63,790 nt of DNA from Fidelibacterota bacterium (GTDB lineage Bacteria > Fidelibacterota > Marinisomatia > Marinisomatales > TCS55), in contig JAPYRG010000010.1 of NCBI GenBank assembly GCA_029936965.1, positions 7,039-70,828 of the forward strand, given 5' to 3'. The position numbers were made by a program, and so were the translations under genes. The notes under the pieces were generated by a model. The model ran no database searches and was not told the origin of the DNA. It was given only the letters and a program-made list of their open reading frames with translations. Positions 42,667 to 51,444 of this stretch are shown here, one piece after another (positions within the stretch are counted from its first letter, which is position 1; each line of letters starts with the position of its first letter).

Positions 42667-43881
42667 TCATTTGAAAACGCTGGCTGTTTTTTCAATACTT
42701 TCACACAAAGTATCTATATCATCTTCCGTATTATATATATAAAAACTTGCTCGACTAGTTGCAAAGACACCTAACTTATTCATAATTGGCTGAGTACAAT
42801 GCTGACCTGCGCGAATTGCTATTCCATCTTGATCAAGAAATTGTGCTAAATCTTGAGGATGAACATCTTCAATTTCAAAGCTAACCACTGGGCCACGTTG
42901 ATTCTGATTGCCATGAATCTTTAGTCCATCTATTTGATTCAATTTATCTAAAGCATATTTAATCAGTCTTTCACCATAATGATGAATATTATCTAACCCT
43001 AAATCATTTATATATTGAACTGCGGCACCCAAACCAATGGCTTGGGCAATATTTGGAGTTCCTGCTTCGAACTTATAAGGAATTTCATTCCATGTAGCAT
43101 CTTGCATAGAAACTGATTTGATCATTTCACCGCCAGTTTGAAAAGGCTCCATTTCATCAAGAATTTCCGGTTTGCCATATAAAATCCCTACACCTGTTGG
43201 CCCTAACATTTTGTGTCCTGAAAATGCATAGAAATCCGAATTTATGTGGCTTAGATCAGTATGTCCATGGGGAACCCATTGTGCTCCATCAATTAGTGTT
43301 TTTGCTCCTACATTGTGAGCCATCTCAATAATATTCTTTATAGGATTAATTGTTCCCAAAACATTCGACTGGTGAATAACAGCTACAAATTTTGTTTTAT
43401 TATTAAAATACTTATCTGGATCATTTAGATCTAGCGTTCCATCATCATTTAAAGGTATATATTTTAAACTCGCACCAGTTGCTTTTGCTGCAAGCTGCCA
43501 AGGGACAAGATTGCTATGATGTTCCATTTCTGTAACTAATATTTCATCATTTGATGATAAATTATTTCTTGCCCATGCATATGCTACAAGATTGATTGAT
43601 TCAGTAGCCCCTCTTGTAAAAATAATTGATGAATTATCAGCGCCAATAAACTTTGCGATTTTTTCCCGTGCATCTTCATAAGCCTGAGTAGCTTTTTCTC
43701 CAATAGTATAGATTGCACGATGTACGTTTGCATTAAACTGCGTATAGTATTTATTTAATTCATTAAGAACAATAGATGGTCTTTGAGTTGTTGCTGCATT
43801 ATCAAGGTAAACGAAAGGTTTCTCTATGTTAGAATAAATAGGAAAATCTTTGCGAATTTGAATGGGATCAAAGTTTTTCAA
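42667..43881 (-). CDS. sufS: cysteine desulfurase SufS
   Basis: 404 residues, group II PLP enzyme. YLDNAATTQRPSIVL is the N-terminal signature; PLP is bound by the Lys in FSGHKMLGPTGVGILYG; histidine in MEHHSNLVPW; the catalytic Cys362 is in RAGQHCTQP at the right position relative to E. coli SufS (C364). It mobilises sulfur from cysteine, passed to SufE (encoded upstream) and then to SufBCD. Group II enzymes can also act on selenocysteine, which would connect to the selD gene just upstream of this operon. Confidence 0.97.
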   Translation of the reverse strand: MKNFDPIQIRKDFPIYSNIEKPFVYLDNAATTQRPSIVLNELNKYYTQFNANVHRAIYTIGEKATQAYEDAREKIAKFIGADNSSIIFTRGATESINLVAYAWARNNLSSNDEILVTEMEHHSNLVPWQLAAKATGASLKYIPLNDDGTLDLNDPDKYFNNKTKFVAVIHQSNVLGTINPIKNIIEMAHNVGAKTLIDGAQWVPHGHTDLSHINSDFYAFSGHKMLGPTGVGILYGKPEILDEMEPFQTGGEMIKSVSMQDATWNEIPYKFEAGTPNIAQAIGLGAAVQYINDLGLDNIHHYGERLIKYALDKLNQIDGLKIHGNQNQRGPVVSFEIEDVHPQDLAQFLDQDGIAIRAGQHCTQPIMNKLGVFATSRASFYIYNTEDDIDTLCESIEKTASVFK

Positions 43882-43888
43882 GGTAATT

Positions 43889-44449
43889 TTAGAGAAGGCC
43901 CATTTCTAATCGAGCTGCTTCGGAAATCATTGATTGATCCCAAGGAGGGTCCCATACGAGTTCTAAATTAATTTCATCAACACCTTGTACGTTTTTTATT
44001 TTCTGTTTTACTTCATCCGCAATTACAGGACCCATTCCACATCCAGGAGCAGTGAGAGTCATTTTTATATCCACTAGTTTGTTTCCATTATCTTTTGTTT
44101 TGAATTTGCATGAATATATTAAACCTAGATCAACTATATTAACTGGTATTTCTGGATCATAGCAAGTTTTCATTACATCCCATACAGCCTTTTCACTTAT
44201 TTCTGCACCATGAATATTGTTTAATTTTTGTATTTCTTCAGATTCTTCTTTTCCAATAACATCAGCATCCTTGCCATCAATTCGAAAAAGATTTCCGCCG
44301 ATCATCACTGTATAACTTCCACCTAAAGCTTGTGTTATATGTCCATTTTGGCCTTTCTTCAAATTTGTTTTAGCACCAAAGGGTATTGTTATCACATCAA
44401 CATCACGTGAAAGAGTTACTTGTTCATCCATGTGCGTAGTATTAATCAT
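43889..44449 (-). CDS. sufT: Fe-S assembly protein SufT (DUF59 with N-terminal extension)
   Basis: 186 residues. Residues about 85-186 are the MIP18/DUF59 domain with DPEIPVNIVDLGLIYSC and MTLTAPGCGMGPVIADEV (the conserved Cys is a cluster-transfer residue in the family). The N-terminal about 80 residues with VITIPFGAKTNLKKGQ and ALGGSYTVMIGG are the extension that distinguishes SufT. It probably helps maturation of Fe-S targets. Placed between sufE and sufS, and there is a second DUF59 protein, without extension, at the other end of the operon. Confidence 0.9.
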   Translation of the reverse strand: MINTTHMDEQVTLSRDVDVITIPFGAKTNLKKGQNGHITQALGGSYTVMIGGNLFRIDGKDADVIGKEESEEIQKLNNIHGAEISEKAVWDVMKTCYDPEIPVNIVDLGLIYSCKFKTKDNGNKLVDIKMTLTAPGCGMGPVIADEVKQKIKNVQGVDEINLELVWDPPWDQSMISEAARLEMGLL

Positions 44450-44451
44450 TT

Positions 44452-44865
44452 TTAAGCAAGTAATTCACTTTGAATTTTGTGAATAGCAGCTCCAAATCCA
44501 TTTGTCCTTTGGCTGCTAATAGAACCCCCCAGACCTATCTCTTTTAAAATATTATCCCCATTAATTGATAATATATCTTCTTTTTTTTGTCCATTAAATA
44601 ATCTTTGAAGAATATATAGAAGTCCTTTAACAATCATTGCATCTGAATCTGTAAGAAAGTTATACGTTTTATCAGAATTTTCTTCAGATATTATCCAAGC
44701 CTGGGAAGTGCATCCATATACTTTATTTTCATCATTCTGATCAGCGAGATTAATCCCTGGAGACTTTTTTGCAATATCCACCAAGTAAATATACTTTTCT
44801 CTTGCGTCTTCAAAAACAGAGAATTCTTTTCTTATTTCTTCCATTTTATTCTGAATATTATTCAT
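44452..44865 (-). CDS. sufE: sulfur acceptor SufE
   Basis: 137 residues from ATG 44865, which shares one base with the sufD stop (TAATG); a longer frame to 44892 lies inside sufD. The active-site cysteine loop is KVYGCTSQAWII, and LYILQRLFNGQKKEDI and FGAAIHKI are typical of SufE. It accepts persulfide sulfur from SufS and delivers it to SufB. Confidence 0.95.
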   Translation of the reverse strand: MNNIQNKMEEIRKEFSVFEDAREKYIYLVDIAKKSPGINLADQNDENKVYGCTSQAWIISEENSDKTYNFLTDSDAMIVKGLLYILQRLFNGQKKEDILSINGDNILKEIGLGGSISSQRTNGFGAAIHKIQSELLA

Positions 44866-46139
44866 TATGTAACACCTGTATTTTCTAACCAATAAGATAA
44901 TTGCTCATTAACGTATTGATTAATATTTTTTTCAGAAATTATTTTCAAAGCTTCTTTTGCAAATCCATTTATAAGTAATAAATGTGCTGTTTTAAAATCA
45001 AGCCCACGAGATCTCATATAAAATATAGCATTATCATCTAATTGTCCAGTTGAAGATCCGTGAGAACATTTTACATCATCTGCATAAATTTCTAACTGTG
45101 GATTAGAATGAGCAACGGCCTTATCATTTAGTATAAGATTCCTAGTTGTTTGCTTAGCATTAGTTTGTTGCGCATCTTTTTTTACTATTACTTTTCCATT
45201 AAAAATTCCCGATGAAGCATCTGACAGTATATATTTAAATAATTGATTGCTTATACATTTTTCTTTTAAATGATTTACTGTAATAAAATGATCGTGTTGT
45301 TGCTTGAGCTTTGAAAGACAAAGACTGTTTATCGAAGATGAGGCGCCAATATCATTAAGATTCACATTAATATTTTGTCGGTATTTATTTGCACCTGACA
45401 CATAATGGAATGCATTTAATTTCGCATCTTTTTCCAATATATATTCTGTGTCCGCAACATGATAAGAACTATTTCCATCTTCTTGCAGTCGAATGTGATT
45501 GAGGGAAGAATTCTTTAGTAATTCTATTTTTGTTACAGCATTCAGCCAATATTCAATATTAGTTGATCCGTAATAATGTTCAATAATTGTAGCTTCAGAG
45601 CTATTACCTATCTTCATTATAAATAAGGGATGATTCATTATTGGTTCATCTATATCAGAAGTATAATTGATAATATGTATGGGTTCATTAATAATTTCAT
45701 TATCATTCACAATAATTGTTAAACCTGTATTAATCATTGCTGAATTAATGTTATGAAACGGATTTGCATGTGGAGAGAAAATCTCATGGATTAATTCTGG
45801 GTTTGATTTATAAGTCTCACCTATTGTTTCAATAGAAATTTGATTACTAATAGAAGAAAGATCTTTTTGATAATAACCATTAAAAAAAACGATTCGATTA
45901 GAATTATTGATTTCTGGGAATGGATTAGGCAGAGTAGAAATATTCTTTCTTAATCCAAAACGGAAAGACATATTGTTAAGTAATGAAAAATCTGAATATT
46001 TCCAATCTTCCCAGCTTCTATTTGGGAATCCATGTCTGGTAAATTCTTTAAAAGCATTTATCTGTAATGATTTAATAGTATCTGATCCATTAAGGCCAAA
46101 TAGTGGAGATTTATTTATTTCTTTTTCTAAAAATTTCAT
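44865..46139 (-). CDS. sufD: Fe-S scaffold component SufD
   Basis: 424 residues. C-terminal DVKCSHGSSTGQLDDNAIFYMRSRGLD is the SufB/SufD core motif, with the histidine (CSHG) known to be needed for cluster assembly. The beta-helix region is in the middle (LNAVTKIELLKNSSLNH). It forms the SufBC2D complex with its neighbours, sharing its stop codon with sufE and starting 1 bp after sufC. Confidence 0.95.
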   Translation of the reverse strand: MKFLEKEINKSPLFGLNGSDTIKSLQINAFKEFTRHGFPNRSWEDWKYSDFSLLNNMSFRFGLRKNISTLPNPFPEINNSNRIVFFNGYYQKDLSSISNQISIETIGETYKSNPELIHEIFSPHANPFHNINSAMINTGLTIIVNDNEIINEPIHIINYTSDIDEPIMNHPLFIMKIGNSSEATIIEHYYGSTNIEYWLNAVTKIELLKNSSLNHIRLQEDGNSSYHVADTEYILEKDAKLNAFHYVSGANKYRQNINVNLNDIGASSSINSLCLSKLKQQHDHFITVNHLKEKCISNQLFKYILSDASSGIFNGKVIVKKDAQQTNAKQTTRNLILNDKAVAHSNPQLEIYADDVKCSHGSSTGQLDDNAIFYMRSRGLDFKTAHLLLINGFAKEALKIISEKNINQYVNEQLSYWLENTGVT

Positions 46140-46140
46140 A

Positions 46141-46881
46141 TTAACTATCTAACCAACCATATCCTTTTTCTTCAATTGTTTCTGCTAGTTCTTCACCCCC
46201 TGATTTTGCAATTCTACCATCAATTAATACATGGACATGGTCTACTTCTAAGTATCGAAGAATTCTTTGGTAGTGTGTAATGATAATAATTGCACGATCA
46301 TCACTTCGATATTTATTTACTCCTTCAGCAACAATTTTTAGAGCATCTATGTCCAGACCTGAATCTGTTTCATCTAGAATAGCTAGGTTAGGCTCAAGAG
46401 TAATCATTTGTAAAATTTCGTTACGTTTTTTCTCTCCACCAGAAAATCCATCATTTACTGCCCGGTGCAGGTATTTTTCTCCCATACCAACAATTTTTAA
46501 TTTTTTACGGATAAGATCTAAAAATTTAACAGCATCTAACTCAGGTTTTCCTTGATGTTTTCGTTTTGCATTTAAAGCAGCCTTAAGAAAATAGGCATTG
46601 TTTACACCTGGAATAATAACTGGGTACTGAAATGACATAAATATGCCTTCTAATGCGCGATTTTCAGGAGTATCATCTATTATACTTTTATTATTGTAGA
46701 GTATGTTTCCATCTGTAACCTCATAAGAATCGCGCCCAGCAATAATATTAGCTAAAGTGCTCTTTCCCGATCCATTACGCCCCATTATTGCATGAATTTC
46801 ACCATTATTCACATTAAGGTTGATTCCCTTTAGGATTTCTTTTCCTTTTATAGCAGCTTTTAAATCTTTTATTTCTAACAT
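46141..46881 (-). CDS. sufC: Fe-S assembly ATPase SufC
   Basis: 246 residues from ATG 46881, 4 bp after the sufB stop; a start at 46896 would overlap sufB. Walker A is IMGRNGSGKSTLANII, the ABC signature is FSGGEKKRNEI, Walker B is NLAILDETDSGLD, and IIIITHYQRIL contains the H-loop. A soluble ABC ATPase that drives conformational change in SufBCD. Confidence 0.97.
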   Translation of the reverse strand: MLEIKDLKAAIKGKEILKGINLNVNNGEIHAIMGRNGSGKSTLANIIAGRDSYEVTDGNILYNNKSIIDDTPENRALEGIFMSFQYPVIIPGVNNAYFLKAALNAKRKHQGKPELDAVKFLDLIRKKLKIVGMGEKYLHRAVNDGFSGGEKKRNEILQMITLEPNLAILDETDSGLDIDALKIVAEGVNKYRSDDRAIIIITHYQRILRYLEVDHVHVLIDGRIAKSGGEELAETIEEKGYGWLDS

Positions 46882-46885
46882 TTGT

Positions 46886-48337
46886 TTAACCAACACTTCC
46901 TTCGAGACTTACTTCCATAAGTTTTTGTGCTTCGACTGCAAACTCCATTGGAAGCTCCTTGAATACTTCTTTACAAAATCCATTAACAATTAGTGAAACT
47001 GCATTTTCAACAGAAATACCTCTTTGGTTACAATAAAATAATTGATCTTCACCAATATTAGAAGTAGATGCTTCATGTTCCATTTGTGCGCTTGGATTTC
47101 GAACATCTATATATGGAAAAGTATGAGCACTACACTTGCTACCAATTAATATTGAATCACATTGTGAGTAATTTCTGGCCTTATCAGCATTTTTCATAAT
47201 TTTTACCTGACCTCGATACGTATTCTGACCTTTCCCAGCAGAAATGCCTTTCGAAATAATTGTGCTATTTGTGTTTTTGCCAATATGTATCATTTTGGTG
47301 CCAGTATCTGCTTGTTGAAAGTTATTTGCAACTGCTACGGAGTAAAATTCACCGATAGAATTATCACCTTTCAAAATACAGCTAGGGTATTTCCAGGTTA
47401 TTGCAGATCCAGTCTCTACCTGTGTCCAGGATATTTTTGAATTTTTTCCAGCGCAGATACCTCGTTTGGTTACAAAATTATATATGCCGCCTTTACCTGT
47501 TTTTGGATCTCCAGGATACCAGTTTTGAACTGTGGAATATTTGATCTCAGCATCTTTATTAGCTACTAATTCCACCACGGCAACATGTAATTGATTATCG
47601 TCACGCATAGGCGCTGTGCAACCCTCTAAATAGCTGACATGGCTTTCGTCATCAGCTATAATTAACGTTCTTTCAAATTGACCTGTATTCATTGCATTAA
47701 TTCTAAAATATGTAGATAACTCCATTGGACAGCGCACACCTTTTGGGATGTAAACAAAACTACCATCGCTGAATACTGCAGAATTAAGAGCTGCAAAATA
47801 ATTATCTGTATAAGGGACTACAGAACCCAGATGTTTTTTTACTAGGCTGGGATGATTTTGAACAGCTTCTGAAAATGAACAGAATATAACCCCCTCTTTT
47901 TCCAAACCTTTTTTGAAAGTTGTAGCAATTGACACACTATCAAAAACAGCATCTACAGCTACACCAGATAGCATTTTTTGTTCCTCTAATGGAATACCTA
48001 ATTTATTATATGTCTTGATTAATTCTGGATCAACTTCATCAAGGTTTTTTGGCCCATTAGATTGATCTTTAGGAGCAGAGTAATAACTGATGGAATGATA
48101 ATCAATTTTAGGGTAATCTACTTTAGCCCAATTTGGTTCATCCATATTTAGCCAATGTTTATATGCTTTAAGTCTCCAATTTAATAGCCAATCTGGTTCT
48201 CCTTTTTTATGAGAAATAAAGCGTATAACGTTTTCATCTAGACCAGGAGCAATTGTATCTTGTTCTATATCAGTAACGAACCCGTATTGGTAATCCTGAG
48301 AAGTAAACTCCTCAATGGTTTTATTTTTTGCTTTCAA
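46886..48337 (-). CDS. sufB: Fe-S scaffold SufB
   Basis: 483 residues, full length. It carries [18 protein letters not shown] near residue 105, [19 protein letters not shown], and the C-terminal core [21 protein letters not shown] with the persulfide-accepting cysteine, followed by [20 protein letters not shown]. It is the platform for de novo cluster assembly. The gene follows sufA by 9 bp. Confidence 0.97.
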
Positions 48338-48346
48338 TTGTATACT

Positions 48347-48712
48347 CTAAACTGAAAAGCTTGTACCGCAACCGCAGGAACGATTTGCATTTGGATTATT
48401 TATTTTAAAGCCACCATTAAGCATATCATCTAAGAAATCAACTTCAATCCCACGTACATAAAGCCAACTATTTATATCACAAAATATTTTTAATCCGTTG
48501 CTTTCAAAAACTTTATCATTTTCACTTCGTTTATCATCAAAGGTCATCTTATAGCTCATTCCTGAACAGCCACCTTGCTCAACAGACATACGCAAGCCCC
48601 AACCTTCCTTATCTTCTAGTTTCATAGCTTTTTTTATTCTCTCGCAAGCTTGAGGTGTTACTGAAATAGATGCGGAGGTAAATTCTTTTAATTCTTTTTC
48701 TTTAGTATTCAT
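48347..48712 (-). CDS. sufA: A-type Fe-S carrier SufA/IscA
   Basis: 121 residues. The three conserved cysteines are C49 in EQGGCSGMSYKM and C113/C115 in SCGCGTSFSV, the HesB/IscA/SufA pattern. It receives clusters from SufBCD and passes them on to apoproteins. Its N-terminal about 12 residues are longer than in E. coli SufA. It starts 3 bp after the small DUF59 gene. Confidence 0.95.
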   Translation of the reverse strand: MNTKEKELKEFTSASISVTPQACERIKKAMKLEDKEGWGLRMSVEQGGCSGMSYKMTFDDKRSENDKVFESNGLKIFCDINSWLYVRGIEVDFLDDMLNGGFKINNPNANRSCGCGTSFSV

Positions 48713-48715
48713 TAC

Positions 48716-49081
48716 TTACTCCCATTCTGAGTTTTCTATTTTTTCTGATGATGCGGGCGTTGGATAAAAACCAAGTTTTTCCTTTGCATCATCAGTCATC
48801 ATTTCTGGTTTCCAAGCAGGATCAAAGGTTACAGTAACTGTAGTGTCTTCTACACCATCAAGGGATTCTACTTTTTGTTTAATATCATTTGCCATTTGAT
48901 CTGCCATACCACATCCAGGTGTGGTAAGTGACATAGTAATATCAACATTTGTCGGCTCACTTGCTTGGTCATCAAAAGCTATATCATAAATTAATCCCAA
49001 GTTCCAAAGATCAACAGATATCTCTGGATCATAACATTGCTTCAACACATTTATAATATCTTCTTGCGCTAACTTTTTCAT
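48716..49081 (-). CDS. MIP18/DUF59 metal-sulfur cluster assembly factor
   Basis: 121 residues consisting of a DUF59 domain alone: CYDPEISVDLWNLGLIYDIAF, then DITMSLTTPGCGMADQMANDI, and DTTVTVTFDPAWKPEMMTDDA. It is related to PaaD and to SufT but lacks the SufT extension. It is the second gene of the SUF operon, between the regulator and sufA, so it presumably acts in Fe-S maturation. Confidence 0.9.
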   Translation of the reverse strand: MKKLAQEDIINVLKQCYDPEISVDLWNLGLIYDIAFDDQASEPTNVDITMSLTTPGCGMADQMANDIKQKVESLDGVEDTTVTVTFDPAWKPEMMTDDAKEKLGFYPTPASSEKIENSEWE

Positions 49082-49089
49082 ATCAAAGA

Positions 49090-49488
49090 TTAGTTTGTTA
49101 TATCCTGCACACTCATACTACGAAACATATTAATCATATTATCATTAATACGTTGTATAGGGGTACGGATATTGCAGTGTTCAATTTGCATACAATTAGC
49201 ATCGTAAAAACAATCACTCAAACCAAGCGGTCCCTCTACTTTCTCAAAAAATTCAGCAAGATTAATATTATTCAGCTTTGCTTTAATACGATAACCGCCT
49301 CTGGGGCCATTTATTGCTTCAATAATATTTTCTTTTGCCATATGTTGCAATGTCTTTGCCAATATTTCTAAAGGTATATTATAATGAGTAGCAATTTCTT
49401 TTGTCGATGACACTGAATCAATAGATTTCCTTTGCATATGACGAAGGGCAATAAGTGAGTATTCAACTTTTCTTGTTAGTTTAAGCAT
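49090..49488 (-). CDS. Rrf2-family regulator, IscR-like
   Basis: 132 residues. The winged-helix DNA-binding part has MLKLTRKVEYSLIALRHM and IPLEILAKTLQHMAKENII. The cluster-binding loop has C93, C99 and C105 spaced C-x5-C-x5-C, as in IscR, so it probably holds a [2Fe-2S] cluster and senses Fe-S status. It leads the SUF operon, and a perfect dyad sits immediately in front of its start codon, indicating autoregulation. It plays the role that IscR or SufR has in other bacteria. Confidence 0.92.
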   Translation of the reverse strand: MLKLTRKVEYSLIALRHMQRKSIDSVSSTKEIATHYNIPLEILAKTLQHMAKENIIEAINGPRGGYRIKAKLNNINLAEFFEKVEGPLGLSDCFYDANCMQIEHCNIRTPIQRINDNMINMFRSMSVQDITN

Positions 49489-49549: not shown

Positions 49550-50599
49550 TTAAGAAACGGTAATCAAACTTTTAGTTCTTGTATGTACTGAGCCAATTTG
49601 AACAGCAGGAATAGAAGTCTTGCGATTATAATATTTAATAAATTGATTAGCATTATCTTGAGGCAATGAAATTAATAAACCGCCTGATGTTTGCGCATCT
49701 GCAATCATTAATCTTTCAAATTCAGAAAATGAATCTGAGAAACTAGTAAATTGATTTGCATGCAATAAATTTCTCTTAGTACCACCAGGAACAACTCCTT
49801 GTTCAGCCAATTCTTTTACTCCAGGTAAAAATTTTAAATCATTATAATTAATTTGAAATGATACATCACTACTTCTGCATATTTCTGCAGCATGTCCTAG
49901 TAAGCCAAAACCTGTTACATCTGTAGCTGCATTAACTGAAAATTTTGTTAATATTGACCCTGCTAGTTTATTTAACATTACCATTGATTCTATCGCGTGC
50001 TTGATTGAATCGGCAGTGGCTTTTTCTTTCTTAATTCCAGCACTAATAATTCCTGTCCCAAGTGGTTTAGTTAATAATAATACGTCTCCTGGTTTTGCCC
50101 CTTTATTTTGTATTAGATCCTCTTTTAAAACTTCACCAGTTACAACTAAGCCATACTTAGGTTCTTGATCATCAATACTATGACCACCAATAATGGATAT
50201 TTCAGCTTCATTCGCTTTATCAGCCCCACCTTGCAATATTGCTGAGATAATATGTTTAGGAATATCATTTACTGGAAAACCAAGTATATTTAATGCAAAA
50301 AGTGGTTTTCCGCCCATAGCATAAATATCAGATATAGCATTAGCTGCTGCTATTTGTCCAAACATATAAGGGTCATCAATAATAGGCGTGAAAAAATCAA
50401 CAGTCTGTAAAATAAATTTATTATCTAGTAAACGTACAACAGCCGCATCATCAGAATTATCATATCCAACAACTACTCGATCATCTTTTTTTTGCACTAA
50501 ATTACCCAGAACCTGGGCTAGGTCATCCGGACCAATTTTGCATGCTCATCCAGAACCATGCGATAAAGTACTTAATCTAATCTGTTCTTTTGTTTTCAT
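49550..50599 (-). CDS. selD: selenide, water dikinase SelD, a selenoprotein (Sec18)
   Basis: 349 residues when an in-frame UGA is read as selenocysteine. Plain translation gives a truncated start at GTG 50497. Continuing the same frame upstream gives ATG 50599 and the N-terminus MKTKEQIRLSTLSHGSG-Sec-ACKIGPDD, with UGA at 50548-50546 in the position of the catalytic Cys17 of E. coli SelD and the essential Lys (K21) intact. The rest matches SelD: NSDDAAVVRLLDN, TVDFFTPIIDDPYMFGQIAAANA, DVTGFGLLGHA, DAQTSGGLL. It makes selenophosphate from selenide and ATP for tRNA-Sec and selenouridine. A SECIS-like hairpin follows. Its own start lies 35 bp after an unknown gene. Confidence 0.95.
50505..50517 (-). 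promoter_or_regulatory. SECIS-like hairpin of selD
   Basis: On the minus strand, 28 nt after the UGA, CCCAG and CTGGG form a 5-bp stem around a GTT loop, giving the AGGTTCT apical sequence close to the AGGTCT loop that SelB recognises in E. coli formate dehydrogenase mRNA. The distance from UGA is within the usual range for bacterial elements (about 16-37 nt). Confidence 0.65.
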
Positions 50600-50634: not shown

Positions 50635-51444
50635 TTATAAGCTATCCGCTAATTTTCTTATATCTTCAATAGTGTTTATATCTCTATCAATAAGATATTC
50701 TAGATGAATGGTTTTAAATCTAGAATGAATTTGCAGTTGAGACTGGTATTGATGTAGCACCATCGGAATGTGCATTGTTTTAAATACCATTAAAGAAAAA
50801 GGGAAATCTAATTCAGTGTGTTTTAAAGCTGATAGAGTAGTATTATCCTTTCTCATCTGCTTACGGCATTCCTGAATATCTTTTAACAATAATTTTTTTC
50901 GAAATTCCCAAGGGGCTGTAATATCAGATAATGAATCAATAAATTCATATCCGCGTGTAAAATGTTCTAAAAAATATTTTCCATATATTCCACCGCTTAG
51001 TTCTTTATTAAGAAATTCATTTATCTCATCTTTTTTTGATGATAGAAAAAGTTTCCAATTGCTGAAATCTGACCGGAAGAGAAAATAACCGAAAGGTGTT
51101 TTAAATGAATTTCTTGGTGTAAAGAATGCCTTTATTTCATATGTAAGTTTTTTAAGGTCATTACGTAATTCATGAGAAAAAAGTTGTACAGTTATAGGAG
51201 AATAATTTTTAGGTATTTTCAAGAAATCTTTTGGGATAATAGATTCTGAAAGATTTAAAGTATAGCTTTTTTCAAAACCTTGAATATTGATCTCAATAAA
51301 CGCTCCAAGGTCACTTAATTTAATAAGATTATTTAATGCTTGGTCAAATTCTGGAAAGGTTGCTATCGAAGGATTAGAAGAACTAGGGATCTCTCCAAAT
51401 AATGATAATTGACGTGGATCATTTGAATCTCGCTTATTCACCAT
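50635..51444 (-). CDS. protein of unknown function with a beta-clamp-binding-like motif
   Basis: 269 residues, soluble, Lys/Phe/Leu-rich. Residues 12-16 near the N-terminus read QLSLF, the pentapeptide that many DNA polymerase and repair proteins use to dock on the beta sliding clamp (consensus QL[SD]LF). I recognise no domain in the rest (KNYSPITVQLFSHELRNDLKKL, FKTPFGYFLFRSDFSNWKLFLSS), which reads as mixed alpha/beta. It is transcribed with selD, which starts 35 bp downstream. Function unknown. Confidence 0.6.
   Translation of the reverse strand: MVNKRDSNDPRQLSLFGEIPSSSNPSIATFPEFDQALNNLIKLSDLGAFIEINIQGFEKSYTLNLSESIIPKDFLKIPKNYSPITVQLFSHELRNDLKKLTYEIKAFFTPRNSFKTPFGYFLFRSDFSNWKLFLSSKKDEINEFLNKELSGGIYGKYFLEHFTRGYEFIDSLSDITAPWEFRKKLLLKDIQECRKQMRKDNTTLSALKHTELDFPFSLMVFKTMHIPMVLHQYQSQLQIHSRFKTIHLEYLIDRDINTIEDIRKLADSL

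Follow-up and report, generated by a model that had tools for sequence, protein, structure and literature searches.

Bacterial selenophosphate synthetases that contain selenocysteine (Sec), the Sec-type SelD/SPS2 proteins, have long been known. As described (PMC4561486, PMC1794560, PMC2398784), they carry a single Sec at the position of Cys17 in the E. coli enzyme, an in-frame hairpin follows downstream, and the genome also holds SelA, SelB, tRNA-Sec and other selenoproteins. The window (the whole 63,790-nucleotide stretch of DNA analysed here) contains a selD gene that is alike in all of these respects and differs in nothing essential. What distinguishes it is its lineage, SAR406 or Neomarinimicrobiota, from which some single-cell genomes have been listed as having an orphan SelD. 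The gene is ordinary for its phylum and leaves the understanding of selenoprotein synthesis unchanged; the additions are modest, namely a reinterpretation of the orphan SelDs of SAR406 and the differing places of the hairpin among the selD lineages of the phylum.

Two other described forms are useful for comparison. Fusions of an NADH dehydrogenase with SelD have been reported as Cys forms (PMC2398784, PMC4561486); they share the SelD domain with the window protein, but have Cys in place of Sec and a long frame with an N-terminal extension, and the probable members found in this phylum show no SECIS hairpin at the site. The window protein, a single-domain Sec form of 349 amino acids, is not such a fusion. 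E. coli SelD (3u0o) belongs to the same family and has the same active-site motif, HGxGxxCK, but it carries Cys17 and no UGA where the window protein has Sec18.

Reading frame and start of selD

The gene for this selenide, water dikinase (selenophosphate synthetase) occupies positions 49550-50599 on the minus strand. Its frame runs from ATG 50599 to TAA 49550 over 349 codons and is interrupted by a single in-frame TGA (50548-50546), residue 18, in the context SHGSG-U-ACKIGPDD. When this codon is read through, the protein matches TIGR00476 over residues 8-316 with 395.9 bits (curated cut-off 125), contains the Pfam domains AIRS and AIRS_C, and matches E. coli SelD (3u0o_A) with E = 2.4e-74. In the 3u0o alignment residue 18 faces Cys17, and Lys21 (codon 50537-50539, minus strand) faces the active-site lysine Lys20, which is invariant in the SelDs compared. 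The pair of active-site residues that marks the family, Cys or Sec and Lys, is therefore present as U18 and K21, and the in-frame UGA stands where homologues have their catalytic Cys, with coding sequence on both sides, as in other bacterial selenoproteins. This is the reading that the first-pass annotation had proposed, with the frame continuing through the UGA to ATG 50599, Sec opposite Cys17 and K21 kept, and it held in each particular. That annotation had also expected automated annotation to truncate the gene. Plain table-11 ORF calling does so, beginning at GTG 50497-50495 (minus strand) and giving a frame of 315 amino acids, but a selD of Cytobacillus spongiae that contains a UGA is annotated at full length in RefSeq, its CDS starting at a GTG ahead of the UGA and running through it.

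We next consider the 17 codons ahead of the UGA (50549-50599, minus strand), which plain translation loses. The closest SelDs, at 93%, 81%, 80% and 72% identity, come from metagenome assemblies of Candidatus Neomarinimicrobiota (Marinimicrobia, SAR406), the 80% one being labelled only 'bacterium'. Comparison with relatives of 93-64% protein identity gave ratios of synonymous to nonsynonymous differences of 10:1, 10:1 and 9:1 (L021, L022 and L023) in these codons, whereas in the remainder of selD nonsynonymous differences were about as many as synonymous ones. The 40 nt 5' of ATG 50599 are identical at 13-18 positions in the relatives and at 37 in the closest one. Since substitutions in the codons ahead of the UGA are nearly all silent and the 40 nt preceding the ATG diverge, we place the start of selD at ATG 50599. 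For a gene that plain translation misses, this fixes both the N-terminus and the active site.

The UGA itself is strongly conserved. It is present at the Sec codon in 79 of 80 related loci, and the remaining one, from Evansella caseinilytica (L044), has TGT, encoding Cys. In a sample of 199 Neomarinimicrobiota genomes, 145 SelD matches extend to the N-terminus, and about 121 of these contain exactly one TGA. The other 24 have none, and nearly all of them lie in frames of about 470-760 amino acids. Among these, candidates for a fusion have frames of about 700-760 amino acids, and the long-frame SelDs whose site was read have Cys there; judged by frame length and Cys, the long-frame SelDs without TGA in this phylum are probably NADH-dehydrogenase-SelD fusions.

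The hairpin downstream of the UGA

The transcript of positions 50503-50519 (minus strand) can fold into the hairpin (A)GCCCAG-GUU-CUGGGU(A), with the GUU loop at 50510-50512. Its core, CCCAG-GTT-CTGGG, begins 27-28 nt after the UGA, with the loop 33 nt after it, in agreement with the SECIS-like hairpin that the first-pass annotation had noticed 28 nt downstream; the support for it comes from relatives and not from a single fold. Taken alone, the hairpin fold of this sequence is unremarkable (z = -0.7 to -1.4 against dinucleotide shuffles). We therefore did not use it as proof, and the hairpin is significant only by way of its relatives. A 41-nt fold of the window sequence (-12.6 kcal/mol) contains two hairpins together, the second being a putative short upstream one, GGUC-CGGAU-GACC (50521-50533, minus strand), which was found by folding and lies in the region used by the SECIS-like hairpins of two other selD lineages, described below.

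To describe the pairs we number from the U of the UGA; the stem then joins positions 30-36 to 40-46, with a GUN loop between them. RNAalifold was applied to 56 Neomarinimicrobiota sequences and to a set of 64 others (Bacillota and one Tectomicrobia), and in each set the consensus was the distal hairpin alone, at -9.8 kcal/mol. Column shuffles gave -0.8 and -1.6 kcal/mol for the two sets, and 0 of 100 were as stable as the real consensus. At pair 33-43 the Neomarinimicrobiota sequences have for the most part C-G or U-A, and sometimes U-G. The other set has G-C or A-U there; in it, position 33 falls on the wobble base of an Ala, Ser or Thr codon, and a Gly, Ser, Arg or Cys codon begins at position 43. 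Pair 36-40 joins the wobble base of a Gln codon to the first base of a Leu codon, both silent, and is G-C in 49 sequences, A-U in 68 and an A-C mismatch in one (117 of 118 agree); Fisher p-values for such counts are only indicative, since the sequences are related and significance is overstated. This silent covariation is common to both groups, and the changes are compensatory and keep the structure, as required of a SECIS element. The Cys-type SelDs of the phylum lack the hairpin, each having 0-3 of the 6 pairs and the group no consensus structure. Comparison across relatives indicates that selection acts on this downstream hairpin as an RNA element, because it shows silent covariation and an RNAalifold consensus in relatives and is absent from Cys-type SelDs. 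Synonymous covariation combined with a Cys-SelD control seems to us a clean way of proving a bacterial SECIS real.

The published bSECISearch rules ask for an apical loop of 3-9 nt, a stem of 4-16 bp, a G in the first two loop positions, a distance of 16-37 nt from the UGA and an energy of at most -7.5 kcal/mol (PMC13188914). The window hairpin has a GUU loop, a stem of 6 bp (7 in the consensus), a spacing of 33 nt and an energy below -7.5 kcal/mol. An Rfam search of the hairpin region and of the window gave nothing relevant. In the Evansella caseinilytica gene with TGT at the Sec position, the SECIS stem is still intact (CGCAA-GTT-TTGCG), which probably reflects a recent change from Sec to Cys with a leftover SECIS.

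A loop 33 nt after the UGA is common to the window's lineage and to Bacillota. The selD genes of two other families of the phylum, f19 (5 sequences) and f21 (4 sequences), lack the distal hairpin. The f19 genes (L162-L166) instead have a hairpin of 7-8 bp, its loop GGA or GGC, 17 nt downstream of the UGA. Of the four f21 genes, three have one of 7 bp with a GGA loop at a distance of 20 nt. Altogether, a nearer SECIS-like hairpin (at about 17 or 20 nt) is seen at L162-L166 and, in f21 and f26 genomes, at L168-L170 and L181; those of f19 and f21 conform to the bSECISearch rules for loop, stem and spacing. We tentatively suggest, with slightly more doubt than conviction given sets of only 5 and 4 sequences, that the selD SECIS may have changed its place inside the gene within a single phylum. 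If the f19 and f21 genes are orthologous to that of the window, SECIS hairpins would have been replaced within one gene, possibly by way of two-hairpin intermediates like the window's. Some genomes of the survey contain two SelD matches, both of Sec type in G103 and in G165, and one of Sec type and one long-frame Cys type in G126; contamination of the assemblies is possible in all three.

Selenocysteine machinery and rival readings

The source genome, a Neomarinimicrobiota (SAR406) assembly of 2.14 Mb in 50 contigs, is 96.65% complete. It contains selB (C36:64079-65908, 329.6 bits) adjoining selA (C36:65928-67274, 492.9 bits) in a selAB operon, and a tRNA-Sec with the anticodon TCA (UCA) on C10 (65.5 bits). 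None of the three lies in the window, where a tRNA search found only tRNA-His. The first-pass annotation had reasoned that the organism must possess SelA, SelB and tRNA-Sec outside the window, and had named their absence from the genome as grounds for giving up its reading; all three were located elsewhere. SelU/MnmH (TIGR03167) and YqeC (TIGR03172) had no match in the genome at E <= 0.001, in searches whose controls were recovered, and the Sec trait is therefore the only one found of the three known selenium traits.

Besides selD, the genome holds at least four Sec genes, found in a non-exhaustive search by stop read-through at loci outside the window (L140, G000:C47:10500-11300; L139, C2:64000-65300; L137, C6:5000-6500; L138, C44:50200-51900). 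They encode a SelW-like protein with the motif YCNSUNY (CxxU), a Sec peroxiredoxin with STPGUTIE (TPGU) and two thioredoxin-like proteins with WUNSC and YUGLC (UxxC), the genes of the last two having hairpins with a GGC loop 17 nt downstream of the UGA. SelW-like, SelD, peroxiredoxin and thioredoxin-like proteins are among the commonest selenoprotein families in surface sea water (PMC1088965, PMC2398784). We scanned the window from end to end for TGA read-through and judged the candidates visually by their fold, the overlap of frames and neighbouring Cys; none was convincing as a second Sec gene. In the genome there was no match to AhpD-like proteins (PF02627), and its sole molybdopterin oxidoreductase match contains no UGA; a search for GrdB/PrdB (PF07355) also gave no match, but its control did not respond either and it carries no weight.

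The frame, the protein family, the position of the UGA, the selected hairpin, SelA, SelB and tRNA-Sec, and the further Sec genes can all be read from the DNA. From these data we conclude with very high confidence that selD encodes a selenoprotein selenophosphate synthetase, with Sec18 inserted by means of the GUU-loop hairpin; nothing that we found speaks directly against this. That Sec is actually inserted, that Sec18 acts in catalysis and the route that selenium takes are inferred from established biochemistry. SelB with Sec-tRNA-Sec would bind the hairpin with the GUU loop, 33 nt past the UGA, and this binding would let the ribosome add selenocysteine as residue 18, where E. coli SelD has its catalytic Cys17. 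The full-length SelD would convert selenide and ATP to selenophosphate, which SelA would use to form Sec on tRNA-Sec. The charged tRNA would in turn supply SelD itself as well as the SelW-like protein, the peroxiredoxin and the two thioredoxin-like proteins.

The UGA could instead be an ordinary stop and GTG 50497 the true start, as in the ORF that plain table-11 translation yields, leaving an N-terminally shortened SelD or a decaying gene. Such a protein would have lost the catalytic Cys/Sec and the lysine, and this reading is extremely improbable given the almost purely synonymous change in the 17 codons before the UGA, the retention of the UGA in nearly all Sec-type relatives and the presence of SelA, SelB and tRNA-Sec. 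The source is a draft assembly in 50 contigs, which leaves room for an error at a codon that is really TGC or TGT (Cys), the other outcome that the first-pass annotation had named as fatal to its reading. We regard its probability as negligible, because genomes of the phylum that were assembled independently have the same UGA, as do nearly all of the loci from outside Neomarinimicrobiota; moreover, the UGA is accompanied by the selected hairpin that the Cys-type SelDs of the phylum lack. Just as little can be said for decoding of the UGA as Trp or Gly (codes 4 or 25). No other gene in the window plausibly continues through a UGA, we saw neither a tRNA-Trp or tRNA-Gly with a UCA anticodon nor widespread in-frame UGAs, and the only alternative residue at the site is Cys. 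The genome has a tRNA-Sec(UCA) with SelA and SelB, and its other read-through UGAs stand at redox sites (CxxU, UxxC).

A different kind of objection is that this SelD might serve some selenium trait other than Sec synthesis. Three SAR406 single-cell genomes were listed in 2016 in a table of 'orphan SelD' genomes, for which an unknown selenium trait was suggested, with PF00005 and PF00266 as candidate neighbour families (PMC5029168). These are families of ABC ATPases and cysteine desulfurases, and the window selD does adjoin a SUF operon that holds genes of both kinds. We consider this reading very unlikely, if a little less so than the other three, given a complete Sec system with at least five Sec genes in the genome, the lack of SelU and YqeC matches, and the company of SelA in 131 of the 143 genomes of the phylum that have SelD.

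Selenium use in the phylum and surroundings of selD

In the survey of 199 Neomarinimicrobiota genomes, SelA was found in 146 and SelD in 143, both in 131, neither in 41 and only one of them in 27. By these gene counts the survey shows the marine Neomarinimicrobiota to be a widespread user of Sec, a trait for which a literature search found no describing paper in this phylum. We think it more likely that the SAR406 'orphan SelD' cells are incomplete genomes of Sec users. Judging from genomes other than those three, incompleteness of single-cell genomes together with the SUF operon may account for the listing, and the phylum-wide figures for SelD and SelA make an unknown selenium trait an unlikely reason for it. 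Small genomes of 0.7-1.0 Mb in family f2, which belongs to the same order (G006, G023, G032, G060, G083, G098, G102 and others), have neither SelD nor SelA, and some of them are 95-98% complete; here selenium use appears to have been lost with genome reduction.

Directly upstream of selD lies a gene for a conserved protein of 269 amino acids (50635-51444, minus strand) that has no Pfam or NCBIfam match; in eight relatives it is 43-99% identical and is likewise found upstream of selD. Directly downstream is the SUF Fe-S operon (42667-49488, minus strand), which encodes an Rrf2 regulator, a SufT-like protein, a HesB/IscA-like protein, SufB, an ABC ATPase in the position of SufC, SufD, SufE, SufT and SufS. 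Its synteny with selD is kept in relatives, and we regard both neighbours as context, the operon not being a Sec signal in itself. SufS might supply SelD with selenium. The operon also contains two SufT/PaaD-like genes, a long one at 43889-44449 and a short one at 48716-49081 (both minus strand).
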